A stretch of DNA of 64,000 nucleotides from Lota lota (Eukaryota; Chordata; Actinopteri; Gadiformes; Lotidae): assembly GCA_026745465.1 (NCBI GenBank), contig JACYXH010000129.1, forward strand, positions 2,495,001 to 2,559,000, given 5' to 3'. Both the position numbers and the translations under genes were made by a program. Positions 3,734-57,650 of this stretch are shown in pieces (the first letter of the stretch is position 1; the number at the start of each line of letters is the position of its first letter). The notes below the pieces were generated by a model that was given only the letters and a program-made list of their open reading frames with translations, had not been told where the DNA came from and did not search any database.

Positions 3734-3909
3734 GGGCCACCAAGGACATGGGTAAGATGCTGGGGGGCGAGGAGGAGAAGGACCCCGACGCGGAGAAGAA
3801 GGAGGAGGAGCGGCAGGAGGCCCTGAGGCAGCAGGAGGACGAGAGGAAGGCCAAATACGCCAAGATGGAGGCGGAGAGGGAGGGAGTCAGACAGGGGATC
3901 CGAGATAAG
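3734..3909 (+). CDS. cplx1: complexin, internal coding exon (accessory and central helices)
   Basis: Complexins are small cytosolic presynaptic proteins that bind the assembled SNARE complex, clamp spontaneous fusion and promote synchronous release. This exon starts with the last two bases of a split Gly codon and then encodes 58 residues, from Ala-Thr-Lys-Asp-Met-Gly-Lys to Gly-Ile-Arg-Asp-Lys. It covers the acidic N-terminal segment (EEEKDPDA), the charged accessory helix ([12 protein letters not shown]) and the central SNARE-binding helix ([21 protein letters not shown]). It is bounded by CAG at 3731-3733 and a GTGCGG donor at 3910, and ends in phase 0. With ten residues from an exon outside the window and 65 from 7324-7521, the total is 134 residues, the usual length of complexins 1 and 2. 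Residues such as YAKMEAERE and RQGIRDKYGI favour complexin 1; the glutamine pair in ALRQQE and the acidic run in the next exon are more complexin-2-like. The family call is firm, the paralogue is not. Confidence 0.93.
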
Positions 3910-4822
3910 GTGCGGCCCCCGATACAACCCGGACCGCTAAACCAACACCAAAACAGAATACCTTTTATTTACCTTTAGTAAATTAGGATTCCTGGTTTAC
4001 TTCAAGGAGAGGTCATTTGTGGGGAGAATGCAGGAAACACTAAGCGTTTACATTTGAATAGTTTGCAAGGTACTAGCTACGAGTGTACAAGCTACAGTGT
4101 TGTTGTTCTTTTTTTGCAAGCACTAGGTTACCATAAGAGATTACTTCACAAAAAGAAAGTGTGGGTTATGGAACAACAGGCAACACTGAAAATACAAGGC
4201 CTTCATTTTTGGCTACGGATAATTCCACTGCATGAGTTCTCCTTGCCTTCAGCTAGTTCCCAGCCTCACTTGACCTATGAATAAATGTAGATCTATCATC
4301 CACGCTGTATCGCGGGCTTAGTGTGTGCACAGAGCAGAGGCAGTCAAGCTTTCACTGATATGAAAGTATCTGTGTCTCCCTTCAGTCTTCCTGCCATCTG
4401 CTGGATCAACAGATATACAGATATAGTGTTAAAACTTGGAATCAAGGAGGGGGTCGAGCCGTGTGTTCAACTTGAAAAAAACAGAGGATTCGAAATGTTT
4501 TACTAACATGCAGTATCAGAGTAGTTGGACAGCCCGTTGGTGCAAGACACTTAAAAAAAATGACCCCAAAAAATATCCACAGACACTAATTCTTCACTCG
4601 AGTGGTTTTCTGAGACTCTTTTGGTAGCGCTTCGATGAATAAATGACAGAATATCTCCGGGAAAAGAGAGGAGGAGGAATTATACAAACTGGAGAGGAGC
4701 TGGAGAAGCGTGACTCTCTCTACTACAAGCTGACACTACGGTCCTTGTTACTGTAGTGTTGGCCCAGGGGTTGAGCTAGGGGCGAGTTAAACAGGGCGAG
4801 TTAAACAGGGCAAGAATGTGAG

Positions 4823-4825
<3 letters not shown>

Positions 4826-4894
<69 letters not shown>
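4826..4894. repeat. (GA)n microsatellite
   Basis: About 68 bases of uninterrupted GA. Confidence 0.95.
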
Positions 4895-4897
<3 letters not shown>

Positions 4898-5334
4898 GGA
4901 AAGAATTTCCCACTGGGCTATTTAACAGAACCTCATCTTCTGCACTTAAAGGAGCAGTCATCTTAACACCGTAACCACCACTGCAAGAGATTCTCTCCGT
5001 CTTTAATTATAATGTCTGCAGGTGTATACAGTGTAGCTTCACAAGCTAGCTGTTTTTCGCCCCCAACCGATTAACAGAGGAGGTGAAGCGTCGCTCTCCA
5101 AGAGCTCTTCTTACTTCCCTAAGAGGCACGTTTCACCGTATCAAAGCTCGACAGAACAGAGTTTGGCTCAGACAGCGAGGCATCGCTCGGCTTTATTTAA
5201 TGAGAGGCAAACAAATGAGTGTTGACGGTGCTGGTGGCGTATCAAAAGAGTGGTTTTACATCGGTTCAGTGTCTCTCAATAAGCCATTGGTTTTTCTCTG
5301 TCACTGTCAAAGCTCAAGTCATTTTACCACACTG

Positions 5335-5335
<1 letters not shown>

Positions 5336-5371
<36 letters not shown>
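5336..5371. repeat. (CA)n microsatellite
   Basis: CA dinucleotide tract followed by degenerate CA-rich sequence to about 5460. Confidence 0.92.
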
Positions 5372-5373
<2 letters not shown>

Positions 5374-5611
5374 AAAACGCCCACACACATATAAAGACAT
5401 AAACAAACGCGCAAACATGAACATACATGTAAATACGCACAAACACACCGCGAACGCACACCGCCTCTCAGCGGTTCATCCCCCCTCCGGAAAGTGACTC
5501 TCCTCCAGCTGATACAATCGTCTCTCAGTGTACACAACCGTTCTATTAGGAATCACTTGACATCCTACAGACAGCTAGACATGGAGGGTGGTCGTCTCCC
5601 TTGCAGAAGAC

Positions 5612-5648
5612 ACCCCCCCCACCCTCCCACCCCCCCCACCCCCCCACC
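5612..5648. repeat. CCCACCC low-complexity tract
   Basis: C-rich run with A/T interruptions. The complementary strand has several GGGG blocks and could form a quadruplex. Confidence 0.75.
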
Positions 5649-5783
5649 AGAGGCCCATCCTGAGGCTCTGGGGGGCAGAATGTGTTTGAGACCACGGCCT
5701 CTCGGGAGGCTTCCTCCTTCAGCGCGCCATCGGTCCAACATGCAGGGTCTCTACTGACCCGCCTGTCAGGACCACCAGGACCT

Positions 5784-5840
5784 GAGGACCCGTTCTCCGG
5801 ACCCGTTCTCCGGACCCGTTCTCCGGACCCGTTCTCCGGC
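5784..5840. repeat. 13-bp tandem repeat, 4 copies
   Basis: Four perfect copies of GGACCCGTTCTCC in the complexin intron. Confidence 0.92.
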
Positions 5841-5984
5841 GGCGCCTGGACATCCTGCGGCTACAGCGTCCGCAGAAATCCAAGACAAGACCATTCTCAC
5901 TCATCCTCCGCTAAGTGCTGGACCACATTGTTGCAAAAACCGGGCTATCAGCCCCCAAAGTGAGCTTCAAGGGAATCTTTAGAC

Positions 5985-6072
5985 CCTACAGTCGGGCTGC
6001 GGACATTGGAGATCGAACCCAGAACCTTTCGTCTGGGAGTCAAACACCTTAACAACTAGACTATCCTGCCGC
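5985..6072 (-). mobile_element. tRNA-derived SINE head (relic)
   Basis: On the minus strand the sequence opens with GGCAGGATAGTCTAGTTGTT, a tRNA-like A-box region, and about 50 bases later has GGGTTCGATCTC, a B-box close to the RNA polymerase III consensus. The 3' body of a SINE is not obvious. A related fragment sharing the block AGAACCTTTC-GTCTGGGAGT (one or two changes) lies at 41,855-41,935. An intact tRNA is unlikely because the arms do not pair as a cloverleaf. Confidence 0.6.
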
Positions 6073-6428
6073 CTGTTTGATAGCTACTTCATATGTTGCT
6101 ATATCTCGCTACACTGCTATTGCCATTTCTGTAGTTTACAAGCAGCCAAGTAGCAGTGAGATGTTGAGCAACACCCGCTAGTTACCGTAGCTAGTCTTCT
6201 GATAGGCTTAAATTGGTCCCAGATTATGTCACTTTGCTCCAATTTGGGGCAACCAGGACAATTTCACAAGCTGTGAGCGCACGACTCAAGTGCCTTGCTC
6301 TTAAGAGTTGATTGTTTAATATCCTACAACCAGCGTGTGTCTGTATTGAACCAGATGAAAGCCGTCTCCATGGTAACCAACCCTGTATGGATAATAACAT
6401 ACTCAATATAACAGGAAGCACTGGAAAC

Positions 6429-6445
6429 CCCCCCCCCCCCCCCCA
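6429..6445. repeat. C-rich run (about C17)
   Basis: Homopolymer run followed by a single A and more C. Confidence 0.9.
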
Positions 6446-6600
6446 CCCGTGACATACACACACGCAAACAGTAACACACACTATAGCATAGCAAAGACTG
6501 ATACACACACACACACACCATACATACACGTGGCTTAGCGTGGATGAGTGTGAGTTTGTTGCAGCACCTCCTAATATAAACCTGTGTGAGTTCTTTCCTG

Positions 6601-7323
6601 CAGTACAACATCAAGTAGGAGGCAAATGCTAAGGCTCATGCTACGACTAATGTAAAGCTGTGTGGGTGTATGTGTGGGTGTGCTCTCCTGCAGTACAGCA
6701 TTTAGCAGGAGGAGGGGGAGGAGGCTAGTGCTAATGCTAAAGCTAGGGCTAATGCTAGGGCTAATGTAAACCTGTGTGTGTGTGTGTGTGTGTGTGTGCT
6801 CTCCTGCAGTACAGCATTTAGCAGGAGGAGGGGGAGGAGGCTAGTGCTAATGCTAAAGCTAGGGCTAATGCTAGGGCTAATGTAAACCTGTGTGTGTGTG
6901 TGTGTGTGCTCTCCTGCAGTACAGCATTTAGCAGGAGGAGGGGAAGGAGGCTAGTGCTAATGCTAAAGCTAGGGCTAATGCTAGGGCTAATGTAAACCTG
7001 TGTGTGTGTGTGTGCTCTCCTGCAGTACAGCATTTAGCAGGAGGAGGGGAAGGAGGCTAGTGCTAATGCTAAAGCTAGGGCTAATGCTAGGGCTAATGTA
7101 AACCTGTGTGTGTGTGTGTGTGCTCTCCTGCAGTACAGCATTTAGTAGGAGGAGGGGAAGGAGGCTAGTGCTAATGCTAAAGCTAGGGCTAATGTAAACC
7201 TGTGTGTGTGTGTGTGTGTGTGTGCTCTCCTGCAGTACAGCATTTAGCAGGAGGAGGGGAAGGAGGCTAGTGCTAATGCTAAAGCTAGGGCTAATGTAAA
7301 CCTGAGTGTGTGTGTGTGTGCAG
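6601..7323 (+). repeat. tandem array of seven degenerate copies of the complexin exon 3' splice site
   Basis: Seven units of about 90-116 bp precede the genuine acceptor. Each contains CAG followed by a block resembling the start of the last complexin exon; first post-CAG bases are 6604, 6694, 6810, 6920, 7026, 7134 and 7236, and the real exon starts at 7324. The first 32 bases of the exon and of a typical unit agree at about 25 positions (my hand count). Units 2-7 have CTCTCCTG before CAG; the real site has only alternating GT. Between blocks lie a variable (GT)n and repeated GCTAATGC / AGCTAGGGCTAATG elements that supply many branch-point-like CTAAT motifs. Read in the exon frame, unit 1 gives Tyr-Asn-Ile-Lys-stop and units 2-7 give Tyr-Ser-Ile-stop. 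Confidence 0.92.
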
Positions 7324-7521
7324 TATGGCATCAAGAAGAAGGAGGAGAAGGAGGCGGAGGCGGCGGCTGCCATGGAGCAGGCCTCGGAGGGGAGTCTGAC
7401 CCGGCCCAAGAAGGCCGTGCCTACCGGCTGTGGCGATGAAGAGGAGGAAGAGGAGAGCATCGTGGACACGGTCATGAAGTTCCTCCCCGGGCCCCTCATG
7501 GATATGTTCAACAAGAAGTAA
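7324..7521 (+). CDS. cplx1: complexin, terminal coding exon (C-terminal domain)
   Basis: Encodes the last 65 residues of complexin and a TAA stop at 7519-7521. It opens with [19 protein letters not shown], the end of the central helix and the linker, then the family signature EGSLTRPKK, a [10 protein letters not shown] acidic block, and the amphipathic C-terminal helix [17 protein letters not shown] ending in NKK. In the family this C-terminal region binds curved membrane and is needed for clamping spontaneous release. There is no CAAX box, which excludes the farnesylated complexins 3 and 4. The reading frame joins 3734-3909 without a gap. The acceptor (CAG at 7321-7323) is preceded by alternating GT rather than a run of pyrimidines and sits at the end of an array of imitation acceptors. 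Confidence 0.95.
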
Positions 7522-10500
7522 CGTCGCGAGGCCCCCGCGTTACACGTCTGATTGTTACCTTCTGACGACCACACCCACGCCATGTCACCTGACACCTGAC
7601 CCTAACCCTAAACCTCTGTTCTTAGCGACCCCAAATCGAGAGACATACCAAGTTTTGTCGTGAATGTTAAGATATCGATCCGGGCTGTGGTGGAGTTACA
7701 TCATTTTTATTTTGTATACTTTTTTTGTTTGTCTGAGTACCGTCGTCAATGTCGCTAAGGTCGTGACCTTAGCCGTTCTAAAAGATGTAACATCCGCACA
7801 GCTCCTGGAATCTTCACGACATATCACATGGCCTGTTCTCTGATTGGTCCATCTCTGAGACTGAAATTCCAAAATTTACATTTTAACTGCCATTCCACAT
7901 TTCTTTTTGTAAATAGCTAAAAATAGATAAATACATAAATAAATAATGAAAGAAAGGAGTATATGTGCGTTCAAAGATGATATAATGTATTACTAAATTA
8001 TTATGAGAATAAGCCATATTTTAGACTTTTAAAAACGTATCCAAATCATATCAATGTTTCTTTCTGAAATGTCCTGTTGTGTTCCTGCTAATATTTGATA
8101 CATCTAGTGTATATATACACTCGCAACTTTTTTATCAGTTCAGTCCATTGTGAGGAATCTTCTTGTTTTACTGTCTGATGGCAAAGTTTACTGTGACGTT
8201 GTGCTTTGGTTACCGGAAAATCACAATTGTAAACCAAGAAGGTCAACAAGGAAATGATGCTTGTTGTTGCTATTTTTATAGATTTTTGTTAAGCATGCAT
8301 TTGTTACAATTTGTGGCGTACGGCGCGCTACATGCCGTACAAAGCGGCCATTTTGATTTGTTACTATAACTTCAAGCGAAACATCGTGAAACGTGAGGCA
8401 ATAACCTTTTTGTTTTCAAATTGATTGGACTGGCCGTGTGCAGCAGGCCAATCTTGCCTCCATACGGGAACCGTTCTTTCGAAAAATTTGAATAGAATTA
8501 CTATTAAATAGCTGCACTTATGTATGTATTGATATTAAATCCACACAAAATTTAAACGTCCAGTTTTACATGTTAAAAGCGCTGATTTTACTAAGAGGAC
8601 ATGTACATTTTTCGGTCAATTTGTCCGCACAAATATTTATGTTTCGTTTTCCCATTCTTTTTATAAAAAATATTTACATGGATATTCATTTTTGGGACGA
8701 AACACAACTGTGTTGTGAACACAACACATTATATGTTAACAGACAGTGACAAAGGTGCAATATATTGTTGGATATGAAGTTGTTCTGTGTGTATTGTTTA
8801 ACTGACGGGACAGCAGTCCTGAATTGGCAATAACAGACAATCTTCATTGTTACGTGTTTCAAAATGATTTCTCAGCGTGTTAGTCAATGTCAGAGTGGTC
8901 GTCTAGCTCTCAACAGTTTTAGTAACAGCTTTTTTTAGGGCAGATAGACGATGGAGGGGGATTTGTTTAATGTCGTACAAAATGTTTTAAATGTTTTTGC
9001 CACGCGGTAGAAAAATAAGAATACAGTAAAAAAAAAAATCTGTGCTCAAAACAGCACAGCACCACGGCATTGCGGTCGTTTGTTTACATAGAAAAGAAGA
9101 AGATGTACTTGTCATCATGTCGGAAAATCGCAACGTGCCGACTTACCCGTTACAGTGGTATGACCGTTTTTGAAAAACACGCAAAGTGTCAAATGCAGCC
9201 AGACAAGGACAAAGTCATCCGCCGGCCTTCTTTCCGACTGGTAATCACATATGAATATTACAGTCACGTGATCATTCCACGGTGTCTTTTCAAACATTCC
9301 TAATATCTCAGACATTCCACACTATGGGCAACTAAGTGCCCTTGTTTATTGTTCAGATAAGGAATTACTAGTGGGATCCCAATGGTTTATACACAGATTC
9401 CACACATGACCGAGTAAACCAGTCAAACCAATAGCTACAATGCCGGCCCCCTAGAGGACAAGATAGATAGATACAGCTGTAGGAAGCTTAAATAAATTAA
9501 TCCGCATTTATAAACTGCATTATTAACATGAATGAGATGACAGTGTGTTCTTATGTAATGTGATAAAAAGTTGTGTTAGGAGGTCTTACTCGCCATTTAC
9601 ACAAATAGTTGTTACACAAATGTGCAGTGCCCGTAGGTAAACTACTCGTAAAACCATTTTTCATTGTTAATCATTGGCAGTTTAAACAGCAGTAGTTTGT
9701 CACTGGTCCCTGTTGCCTTCCTCCAGCCTGTGATAGGACGATGTGTTAGCTAACATTTAGCGAACAGAAATGGCCAACATTTTCTACCACACCATAGCCA
9801 ATGATTCTTCCCAAATCAAGCATCCAAACCATGAATAATCTGAATAATATATCCAATCAAGCCAAAGATAAGAACAGTGTTGCTACTCGTAGACTTAGAC
9901 GTAGTGTTCCATAGTTAAATTCACTTACTAGACCTTTTAATTAAATTCTAATTCTCAGGTGTTTCATTATATATTACGAATATTGCTTCAGACGTTTTAA
10001 CAATGAGCCCTAAGATATTAAATATTAGTTTCATCGCAAGGGGCCAACAAACACACGTCCTATTTCATTTGAATTGGTAATACTTCTTTTGTGTTCATTA
10101 TTTTGCCCGAAATTACCCTAGAAAGCTAAGATTACTGCCTAGTCAATCCTAATACGATTGGCTCGCTCTCCTCATTACAGACACAGTCATCAATAACAGC
10201 TAAACACCTATTGATCGCACAAATAAAACCGCCCAAAATAACTGCCCAAGTCACACAAGACCCATATCTTGCCGTCTAAAATGACCCCGCACGAAGTGGT
10301 TTTAGTGACGTTGGTGTCCCCTGTTCGGTTGGAGGTCATTTCATTTGTGCTGGTCATGCCCCAGTGATGTTACAACGATTATACTGCCTGACCATTAAAG
10401 AGATGCTCCTTGCTGTGACTAGATTGTGACCGTCCGACCTGCGTCTGTCTCTCGGTGTTCTGTGTGCCCGTTGAGAAGAAGCTTGTTTCGGTCTTCTTTG

Positions 10501-24009: not shown

Positions 24010-24850
24010 ACAATACTATACGATACTATAGTAGGCTATACATACTGCACTGTAGTGTACAATACAATCCTTTACTATACTATACGATACTATAATAGGC
24101 TATACATACTGTACTGTAGTGTACAATACAATCCTTTACTATACTATACGATACTATAGTAGGCTATACATACTGCACTGTAATGTACAATACAATCCTT
24201 TACTATACGATACTATAGTAGGCTATACATACTGCACTGTAGTGTACAATACAATCCTTTACTATCCTATACTATATTATACTATACTATACTATACTAT
24301 ACTATAGTAGGCTATACATACTGCACTGTAGTGTACAATACAATCCATTACTATACGATACTATAGTAGGCTATACATACTGCACTGTAGTGTACAATAC
24401 AATCCTTTACTATACTATACGATACTATAGTATGCTATACATACTGTACTGTAGTGTACAATACAATCCTTTACTATACTATACAATACTATAGTAGGCT
24501 ATACATACTGCACTGTAGTGTACAATACAATCCTTTACTATCCTATACTATATTATACTATACTATAGTAGGCTATACATACTGCACTGTAGTGTACAAT
24601 ACAATCCATTACTATACGATACTATAGTAGGCTATACATACTGTACTGTAGTGTACAATAAGATCCTTTACTATACGATACGATACTATAGTAGGCTATA
24701 CATACTGTACTGTAGTGTACAATACAATCCTTTATTATACTACAATACTTAATACAATACTTTACTAGACTATACAATACGATACTTTAATAGACTGTAC
24801 TATACAATACTTTACTGGACTATACTATTATATACTATACTATAGCCTAC
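24010..24850. repeat. minisatellite, ~59-72-bp unit, about 11 copies
   Basis: Repeats of TACTATACGATACTATAGTA-GGCTATACATACTG-(C/T)ACTGTAGTGTACAATA-CAATCCTTTACTATAC, with internal ACTAT expansions, grading into decayed AATACTTTACTAGACTATAC units. The unit is full of self-complementary TATA/GTAC words. Confidence 0.93.
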
Positions 24851-42518: not shown

Positions 42519-42589
42519 CATCACACGTTACCTTCTGTGATTCAAGGCTGTGAAAACAGAGTGACATGCTCTGTTTTCCTTCACTCCCT

Positions 42590-43506
42590 ACACACTAGCA
42601 TCACTAGTGCAATCCTTACACACTTGCATCACTCCTAGTACATCCTGATACACTAGTACCTCAACTAGTGCACCCCTAAACACTAGCATTACTACTAGTT
42701 CATCCTTACACAAAAAATACCACTACTAGTACACCCCTACACACTAGCCTCACCACTAACACACACTGACTAGCATCACAACTAGTACATATCTACACAC
42801 TAGCATCACCACTAGCACACACTGACTAGCACCACTACCAGTACACACTAGCATTACTACTAGTACACACCTACACACTAGCATTACTACTAGTACACCC
42901 CTACTCACTAGCATTACTACTAGTACACCCCTACACACTAGCATTACTACTAGTACACCCCTACACACTAGCATTACTACTAGTACACACCTACACACTA
43001 GCATTACTACTAGTACACCCCTACTCACTAGCATTACTACCAGTACACCCCTACACACTAGCATTACTACTAGTACACCCCTACACACTAGCATTACTAC
43101 TAGTACACCCCTACACACTAGCATTACTACCAGTACACCCCTACACACTAGCATTACTACTAGTACACCCCTACACACTAGCATTACTACTAGTACACCC
43201 CTACACACTAGCATTACTACTAGTACACCCCTACACACTAGCATTACTACTAGTACACACCTACACACTAGCATTACTACCAGTACACCCCTACACACTA
43301 GCATTACTACTAGTACACCCCGACTAGCGTCACTAGCATTACTACTAGTACACACCTACACACTAGCATTACTACTAGTACACACCTACACACTAGCATT
43401 ACTACTAGTACACCCCTACACACTAGCATTACTACTAGTACACCCCTACTCACTAGCATTACTACTAGTACACCCCGACTAGCGTCACTAGCATCAGTAC
43501 TAGTAC
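42590..43506. repeat. 30-bp minisatellite, >25 copies
   Basis: Unit CACTAGCATTACTACTAGTA-CACCCCTACA with single-base variants (CACACC, CAGTA, TACTCA). Units at the left edge are the most decayed and the core is nearly uniform. The ACTAGT and CTAGTA words are palindromic. The minus-strand frame is an open 10-residue Val/Leu/Cys/Arg repeat by virtue of unit length only. Confidence 0.96.
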
Positions 43507-53436: not shown

Positions 53437-53999
53437 CTCGGTTCCAGGGGGTCTAGGGGTTCTAGGGGTTCTAGGGGTTCTACAGGTTCCAGGGGGTCTA
53501 GGGGTTCCAGGGGGTCTAGGGGTTCCAGGGGTTCCAGGGGGTCTAGGGGTTCTAGGGGTTCTAGGGGTTCTACAGGTTCCAGGGGGTCTAGGGGTTCCAG
53601 GGGTTCTAGGGGTTCCAGGGGTTCTACAGGTTCCAGGGGGTCTAGGGGTTCCAGGGGGTCTAGGGGTTCTAGGGGTTCTAGGGGTTCCAGGGGTTCTACA
53701 GGTTCCAGGGGGTCTAGGGGTTCCAGGGGGTCTAGGGGTTCCAGGGGTTCCAGGGGGTCTAGGGGTTCTAGGGGTTCTAGGGGTTCTACAGGTTCCAGGG
53801 GGTCTAGGGGTTCCAGGGGGTCTAGGGGTTCCAGGGGTTCCAGGGGGTCTAGGGGTTCTAGGGGTTCTAGGGGTTCTAGGGGTTCTACAGGTTCCAGTGG
53901 GTCTAGGGGTTCCAGGGGTTCTAGGGGTCACAGGGGGTCTAGGGGTTCCAGGGCTTCTAGGGGTTCCAGGGGTTCCAGGGGTTCCAGGGGTTCCAGGGG
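53437..53999. repeat. 9-bp minisatellite, about 60 copies
   Basis: Units GGGGTTCTA, GGGGTTCCA and GGGGGTCTA, organised into a higher-order pattern of ~100 bp marked by TCTACAGGTTCCAGG. The minus-strand frame is an open Gly/Thr/Pro/Arg tripeptide-like repeat (collagen-like by accident: GTPRPPGTP). Confidence 0.96.
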
Positions 54000-57049: not shown

Positions 57050-57650
57050 CTACCGACGCAACCCCAGAACAATCTGATCTTCTAACTGAACCAGTTCCAA
57101 CCCCAGAACCATCTGATCTTCTAACTGAACCAGTTCCAACCCCAGAAACATCTGATCTTCTAACTGAACCAGTTCCAACCCCAGAACCATCTGATCTTCT
57201 AACTGAACCAGTTCCAACCACAGAACCATCTGATCTTCTAACTGAACCAGTTCCAACCCCAGAACCATCTGATCTTCTAACTGAACCAGTTCCAACCCCA
57301 GAACCATCTGATCTTCTAACTGAACCAGTTCCAACCCCAGAAACATCTGATCAACTAACTGAACCAGTTCCAACCCCAGAACCATCTGATCTTCTAACTG
57401 AACCAGTTCCAACCACAGAACCATCTGATCTTCTAACTGAACCAGTTCCAACCCCAGAACCATCTGATCTTCTAACTGAACCAGTTCCAACCCCAGAACC
57501 ATCTGATCTTCTAACTGAACCAGTTCCAGCCCCAGAACCATCTGATCTTCTAACTGAACCAGTTCCAACCCCAGAACCATCTGATCTTCTAACTGAACCA
57601 GTTCCAACCCCAGAACCATCTGATCTTCTAACTGAACCAGTCCCGGTGTC
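57050..57650 (+). repeat. 39-bp minisatellite, 15 copies, open as a 13-residue repeat
   Basis: Unit CCAACCCCAGAACCATCTGA-TCTTCTAACTGAACCAGTT, about fifteen copies with single-base variants. In one + frame it reads PTPEPSDLLTEPV throughout and ends PVPVSRDALVRGCV-stop at 57,679-57,681. A strong acceptor (CACCTGTTTCTCCTTCTCCAG) ends at about 57,049, one base before the first unit's flank, so it could be an exon of a repeat protein. A minus-strand frame is also open. I see no partner exon. Most likely an intergenic or intronic minisatellite. Confidence 0.9.

Follow-up and report, generated by a model that had tools for sequence, protein, structure and literature searches.

The window, the whole 64-kb stretch of DNA that was analysed (G000:C129:2495001-2559000, within a 575-Mb assembly), contains the last two coding exons of a complexin gene, which we take from its residues to be cplx1-like. 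The intron between the two exons ends in an array of seven head-to-tail units at positions 6604-7323, which runs directly into the last exon at 7324. The features of the locus are listed below; a slash marks a splice junction here and in the following text.

3734 to 3909, plus strand: penultimate coding exon (exon 3), 176 nt, read from its translation, ending in phase 0 with the donor AAG/GTGCGG
3910 to 7323, plus strand: last intron, 3,414 nt, with 297 AGs
6453 to 6530, plus strand: CA-rich stretch upstream of unit 1, part of which is paired to GU tracts in the fold of minimum energy
6604 to 6693, plus strand: unit 1, acceptor TTCTTTCCTGCAG, copy TACAACATCAAG followed by TAG, acceptor score 8.21, the most diverged unit
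6694 to 6809, plus strand: unit 2, acceptor CTCTCCTGCAG, copy TACAGCATT followed by TAG, acceptor score 5.50
6810 to 6919, plus strand: unit 3, like unit 2, acceptor score 7.02
6920 to 7025, plus strand: unit 4, like unit 2, acceptor score 7.02
7026 to 7133, plus strand: unit 5, like unit 2, acceptor score 7.02
7134 to 7235, plus strand: unit 6, like unit 2, with TAGTAG and without one 12-bp sub-repeat, acceptor score 7.02
7236 to 7323, plus strand: unit 7, like unit 2, acceptor score 7.02
7324 to 7521, plus strand: genuine last coding exon, 65 codons and a stop, with a PF05835 match at C129:2502321
7938 to 7943, plus strand: AATAAA, a poly(A)-signal-like hexamer, the first past the stop codon in a scan of 7522-9500

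The translation of exon 3 carries the accessory and central helices of complexin. The protein obtained by joining exon 3 to the last exon, with a methionine prefixed to the query, matches the profile of the complexin family (Pfam Synaphin, PF05835) with an E-value of 4.7e-34 and aligns across the helices with five solved complexin/synaphin sequences. The reading frame of the last exon is intact and complexin-like. The donor and acceptor of exon 3 score 7.35 and 7.97, respectively, in an approximate position matrix, which is also the basis of all other splice-site scores given here. The first coding exon of the gene has no motif match in the 64-kb window, and the 140 kb upstream contain two weak pattern matches, neither of which is convincing. 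Complexin is the only gene recognised among the 69 of 237 filtered open frames of the window that were read by eye. Large minisatellites are also located at 57059-57641, 53440-53999, 42586-43476 and 24013-24844, with units of 39, 18, 60 and about 64 bp, respectively, and no gene was recognised near them.

The initial annotation placed seven units before the last exon, with acceptors at 6604, 6694, 6810, 6920, 7026, 7134, 7236 and 7324, and these coordinates are exact. The unit lengths, which it gave as 90-116 bp, measure 90, 116, 110, 106, 108, 102 and 88 bp from start to start. Every unit combines a CTAAT resembling a branch point with a short run of pyrimidines, CAG and a decayed version of the exon start. 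The array has the hallmarks of a mirage minisatellite: its tandem units combine the end of an intron with the start of the adjacent exon, and the splice signals CTAAT, pyrimidine run and CAG are retained in 7/7 units. As had been claimed, CTCTCCTGCAG precedes units 2-7, and GT repeats alone are positioned directly upstream of the genuine acceptor; unit 1 is preceded by TTCTTTCCTGCAG. The genuine acceptor owes its GT tract and its CTAAT, 30 nt before the exon, to the tail of unit 7. The acceptor cores of units 2-7 are identical (24/24), which is a sign of homogenisation of the middle units, and the diverged boundary unit 1 matches them at 19/24 positions; the genuine site matches the units at 14-15 of 24. 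The identity of units 2-7 and the divergence of unit 1 suggest that the first duplication is old and that the middle units were amplified recently, and the acceptor of unit 1 is probably the nearest to the original intron end, as far as can be judged from the sequence. Between the acceptor and a GTAAA motif, the seven units (6604-7296) span 48, 72, 72, 72, 72, 60 and 60 nt, all of them multiples of 12 because of a GCTANN sub-repeat.

The likeness of the units to the exon start was evaluated by comparing the real exon start with the 2,389 CAGs from both strands of the window. Over CAG and the following 42 nt, the units are identical to the real exon at 27-30 of 45 positions, and the seven best non-self matches are the seven units, with the next site reaching 25. 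Over 30 nt, the first six places are taken by units, and unit 1 is outside the best 12 matches listed; at 18 nt, unit 1 leads with 14 identities and units 2-7 share a score of 13 with one unrelated site. The local alignment score of unit 2 is above those of 150/150 dinucleotide shuffles and that of unit 1 above 148/150, with 2/150 reaching it. Together, the ranking of CAGs and the shuffles indicate that the units were very likely copied from the start of the last exon and have since decayed, in agreement with the earlier description of them as imitations of the acceptor and exon start. A search of the 575-Mb genome with unit 2 gave at least seven matches, every one inside this array. Viral contigs contain no match to the array pattern and, among 138 pattern matches, no confirmed relative of the complexin protein.

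The genuine acceptor at 7324 scores 1.46, the lowest of the eight, and the copies score 5.50-8.21. The annotation had proposed that decoys scoring far below the real site would speak against their use, and the scores obtained with this simple matrix lie in the opposite direction. The pyrimidine run is kept in the copies and absent at the genuine site, which is the opposite of a simple decay of decoys. The motif CTAAT, recognised by its agreement with the branch-point consensus, is positioned 30-46 nt before the first exon base in each unit and at the genuine site. At the genuine site, CTAAT and the acceptor are separated by an additional AG, 18 nt before the exon; in units 1 and 2, an AG in this interval precedes the first exon base by 14 and 37 nt, respectively. 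The median score of 70 control acceptors is 7.6, where a control acceptor is the best-scoring AG near the start of a profile match, so that some may be wrong, and candidates below 3.5 are excluded by construction; two genuine-looking acceptors outside the control set score 1.0 and 2.3 (L065 and L078). The eight acceptors resolved in other complexin genes of the genome, which do not include that of the last exon on C812, score 3.73 to 11.3. Two of these genes have GT-rich acceptors before their last exons, with scores of 4.35 (C54) and 5.17 (C347), and at least five GT repeats abut the acceptor in 1/70 controls. GT-rich acceptors occur in this genome, and the one of the complexin gene studied here is weak on paper. 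In the complexin gene on C54 (L038, minus strand), a GTGT array of ~100 units, as delimited by TRF, ends a few bases before the last exon, and in that on C347 (L037, minus strand), the last-exon acceptor is preceded by GTGTGTCC repeats without a pyrimidine tract.

Acceptor-like scores of at least 7 on one strand are reached by 3/17 minisatellites of the window, including the complexin array, and acceptor-likeness by itself is therefore unremarkable. Masking of the decoys by hairpins, in which the pyrimidine run pairs with GCAGGAGGAG, was considered and rejected. The folding energies of the units are -11.2 to -12.8 kcal/mol, as opposed to -3.0 at the real site; however, the z-scores relative to shuffles are merely -0.57 to -0.97, and the folding of the units is thus what is expected from their composition. 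A Dscam-like role of the CA tract as a docking site that would choose one GU tract is a conjecture; the CA/GU pairing in the minimum-energy fold is trivial for dinucleotide repeats.

The sole AG among the 297 in the intron that gives full-length complexin is the one before 7324. Read in frame, unit 1 encodes YNIK followed by a stop and units 2-7 YSI followed by a stop, in accordance with the termination after Tyr-Asn-Ile-Lys or Tyr-Ser-Ile that had been described; the distance to 7324 is out of frame for units 3-7. The reading frames imply, as the initial annotation had reasoned, that splicing to any decoy would truncate complexin and that the use of a decoy as an extension of the terminal exon would place the stop in the last exon. 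In the predicted protein, the accessory and central helices would be retained and the C-terminal domain would be missing. Because 296/297 intronic AGs fail to give a full-length protein, the early stops in the units are not special, and the notion that the stops are a feature of design was ruled out on the same count. It has been reported, in the available text of a study of chromaffin cells, that CpxII 1-100, from which the last 34 residues are removed, acts in competition with the endogenous protein and relieves the clamp and that it fails to hinder tonic release (PMC6075865). CpxII 1-100 is a milder truncation than the predicted decoy product.

The recurrence of such arrays was evaluated in the 600 nt upstream of 40/53 matches to PF00118 (chaperonin family) and 40/62 matches to PF01602 (adaptin type), where the matches omitted were mainly first exons and those with internal stops. 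An acceptor was assigned in 70 stretches, the remaining 10/80 being without a clear one (7 PF00118 and 3 PF01602). In 3/70 stretches, all from PF00118 (3/33, as opposed to 0/37 for PF01602), the acceptor core recurs upstream with at least 20/24 identities. One of them (L063) has a single copy at 22/24. The second (L067, G000:C483:541592-542221, minus strand) has five copies of (GT)nTTGCAG/ACATGGCCCAGGGC, each at 24/24 and 44-57 bp apart. The third (L055, G000:C483:543652-544281, minus strand) has four 24/24 copies and weaker ones, its acceptor GTTGTAG/GGGAGGCG being copied inside a minisatellite whose 27-bp unit is repeated about 22 times. L055 and L067 are 2 kb apart on one contig and probably belong to one gene; the recurrence therefore rests on perhaps two loci. 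The array of L067 is a cleaner acceptor-copying array than the complexin one; at the acceptor core, the likeness of the complexin units to their real site (14-15 of 24) is lower than in L067 and L055. In the control stretches, 65/594 intronic AGs and 12/78 acceptor-like AGs have such a copy; the frequency of copying is, if anything, lower for acceptors than for other AGs of the introns, in a comparison that is crude because AGs within an array are non-independent, some stretches overlap and the upstream range was shorter for the background AGs. A tandem repeat is present within 12 nt of the acceptor in 6/70 controls.

A cplx2-like paralogue is located on the same contig, 480 kb away (L028, G000:C129:2016001-2020000, minus strand). 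Its last intron contains a pyrimidine-rich minisatellite with a 43-bp unit (14.2 + 3.4 copies), which ends about 50 nt before the acceptor. The unit includes a CTGAC motif and its consensus is without AG, so that branch-point-like and pyrimidine pieces are repeated without decoy AGs; a scan of roughly 700 nt upstream of the last acceptor met no AG. The richness of the assembly in tandem repeats resembles that reported, in the available text, for Atlantic cod (PMC5241972).

We consider it probable that the complexin array is a mirage minisatellite whose last copy is used and whose decoys are silenced or leak slightly, a tolerated by-product for which no dedicated switch is needed. The minisatellite would have arisen when the 3' end of the last intron was duplicated in tandem along with the opening bases of the last exon, and its middle units would have been amplified recently by unequal exchange. 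The array at the chaperonin-family locus and the amphioxus mirages are in line with this reading. Most transcripts would still be spliced to the last copy at 7324, presumably because only there is an acceptor joined to a GAR-rich exon and a downstream poly(A) signal. The 198-nt real exon contains seven GAR-type enhancer-like hexamers, compared to 0-2 in each 88-116-nt unit. The upstream copies may be passed over or repressed. The motif TAGGG occurs 10 times in the array, where the copies are not independent, once in the remaining intron and not in the real exon; it is present in units 2-7, and GGGGAA in units 4-7. The pure GT tract before the acceptor measures 16-26 nt in units 3-7, 15 nt before the real exon and 6 nt in units 1 and 2. 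Units 3-7 combine a long UG tract on the upstream side of the acceptor with UAGGG or GGGGAA on its downstream side; unit 2 has TAGGG, yet its pure GT run is 6 nt, and unit 1 has neither a long UG tract nor TAGGG or GGGGAA. These motifs suggest that units 3-7 may be repressed through their UG tracts, by a TDP-43-type mechanism, together with the downstream UAGGG or GGGGAA, by an hnRNP A1-type one. Some leakage into truncated complexin is likely, and unit 1, with its short GT tract and without TAGGG or GGGGAA, would be the decoy likeliest to leak. That the best-scoring decoy is free of these putative repressor motifs counts against complete silencing. The score of the genuine site, which is lower than those of the copies and the control median, counts against the array being a mere mirage by-product.

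The higher scores of the decoys, each with CTAAT at 30-46 nt, and the truncation that any decoy use would cause fit a splice switch of variable length that is in use, in which some transcripts would be joined from 3909 to a decoy, with an extended terminal exon, and, the stop being in the last exon, translated into a complexin ending after the central helix. Such a switch also has partial precedents in the available accounts of the competition of CpxII without its last 34 residues with endogenous complexin (PMC6075865), the alternative splicing of the Drosophila complexin C-terminus (PMC10312600) and the ABCA7 repeat with its donor-bearing unit, one-unit retention and length-dependent skipping of exon 19 (PMC5954066). 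However, equal architecture is found at the chaperonin-family locus, amphioxus mirages are reported to be silent in the text available (PMC3087553, PMC3902484), and the early stops are shared with nearly all intronic AGs. We regard the switch as unlikely, and the tunable switch envisaged in the initial annotation is unsupported. The observation made there is confirmed, and the interpretation is supported in part. A heritable rheostat, in which UG-bound TDP-43 and hnRNP A1 would silence the stronger acceptors and the number of units and level of repressors would set how much complexin acts dominantly on release after losing its membrane-binding C-terminus, appears decidedly improbable; in a broader form of this reading, acceptor arrays might repeatedly give rise to splice variants in fish genomes rich in tandem repeats.

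It is very unlikely that the units are weak cassette exons of 48-72 nt, extending from the acceptor to AAT/GTAAA, whose in-frame stops would lower complexin through nonsense-mediated decay. All seven intervals are multiples of 3; however, the sub-repeat accounts for multiples of 12 and leaves few independent length events, and the donor-like sites score 3.95-4.11 as opposed to 7.35 for the donor of exon 3. The lowest score of the eight would also fit a genuine acceptor that is lost in practice, in a gene that makes mainly truncated complexin, but the preserved, complexin-like frame of the last exon and the GT-rich last-exon acceptors of the two other complexin genes make this reading hard to credit. 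Little credence can likewise be given to a minisatellite unrelated to the exon, resembling it through a coincidence of purine-rich sequence after CAG. The shuffles that reach the score of unit 1, the less clean ranking at 18 and 30 nt and the three acceptor-like minisatellites of the window are compatible with coincidence; nevertheless, the units occupy the top seven places among 2,389 CAGs at 45 nt, unit 2 exceeds every shuffle, and the array adjoins the exon in register.

In the literature found, as far as its available text extends, mirages are described from amphioxus; the arrays reported here are acceptor-copying minisatellites in a repeat-rich, fish-like genome. Among the matches listed from open-licence papers, the available text contains no account of the complexin array or of a vertebrate mirage. 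The complexin and chaperonin-family arrays provide natural experiments on 3' splice-site choice by the spliceosome where several sites are nearly equivalent; in the complexin case, a lapse in that choice would have a readable consequence for the protein.

Variation of the complexin C-terminus at the RNA level is known from Drosophila, where it results from the alternative splicing of exons 7A and 7B (PMC10312600). The predicted decoy product would be similar in this respect; however, according to the part of that account available, which makes no mention of tandem decoys, both Drosophila exons keep the amphipathic helix, and the C-terminus is not lost. At CFTR exon 9, repression is exerted by TDP-43 bound to the UG tract before the acceptor and hnRNP A1 bound to a GGGGAAU element after it, as described in the available text (PMC12171016). 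The (TG)m(T)n tract of CFTR intron 8 and exon 9 share with units 3-7 of the complexin array a UG tract directly before the 3' splice site and a candidate hnRNP A1-type motif downstream. By contrast, CFTR has a single site and no array, and the repression falls on the genuine exon. Among systems in which an effect on splicing has been measured, the VNTR in intron 18 of ABCA7 comes closest; like the complexin array, it has a splice signal inside a repeat unit adjoining an exon. Its 25-bp unit starts with a splice donor; the available text reports that one unit is retained at about 2%, independently of length, and that skipping of exon 19 increases with repeat length (PMC5954066). The ABCA7 repeat differs from the complexin array in that it carries a donor rather than an acceptor, has a 25-bp unit and is human.

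The available account of the amphioxus globin gene BflGb6 describes units of 150-160 bp that combine the 3' end of an intron with the 5' part of the next exon, six and three of them in two haplotypes, which evolve in concert except at the cluster boundaries (PMC3087553). RT-PCR suggests that splicing of BflGb6 is undisturbed, and its authors considered cryptic use possible and the repeats a potential route to new introns (PMC3087553). The mirages of Adh and TnC are reported to yield no aberrant mRNAs, and repeats in lancelet PGBD5 have been likened to them, in the text available (PMC3902484). The complexin array resembles the amphioxus mirages (Adh3, BflGb6/BflGb9 and TnC, with PGBD5 similar) in its tandem copies of an intron-exon boundary with splice signals, in its homogenised units with boundary units set apart, and in its splice-competent-looking decoys beside an intact gene. 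Unlike them, it is located in a repeat-rich, fish-like genome at the terminal exon of a neuronal gene, and its units have GT tracts, a stop in every copy and, on paper, acceptors that outscore the genuine site.
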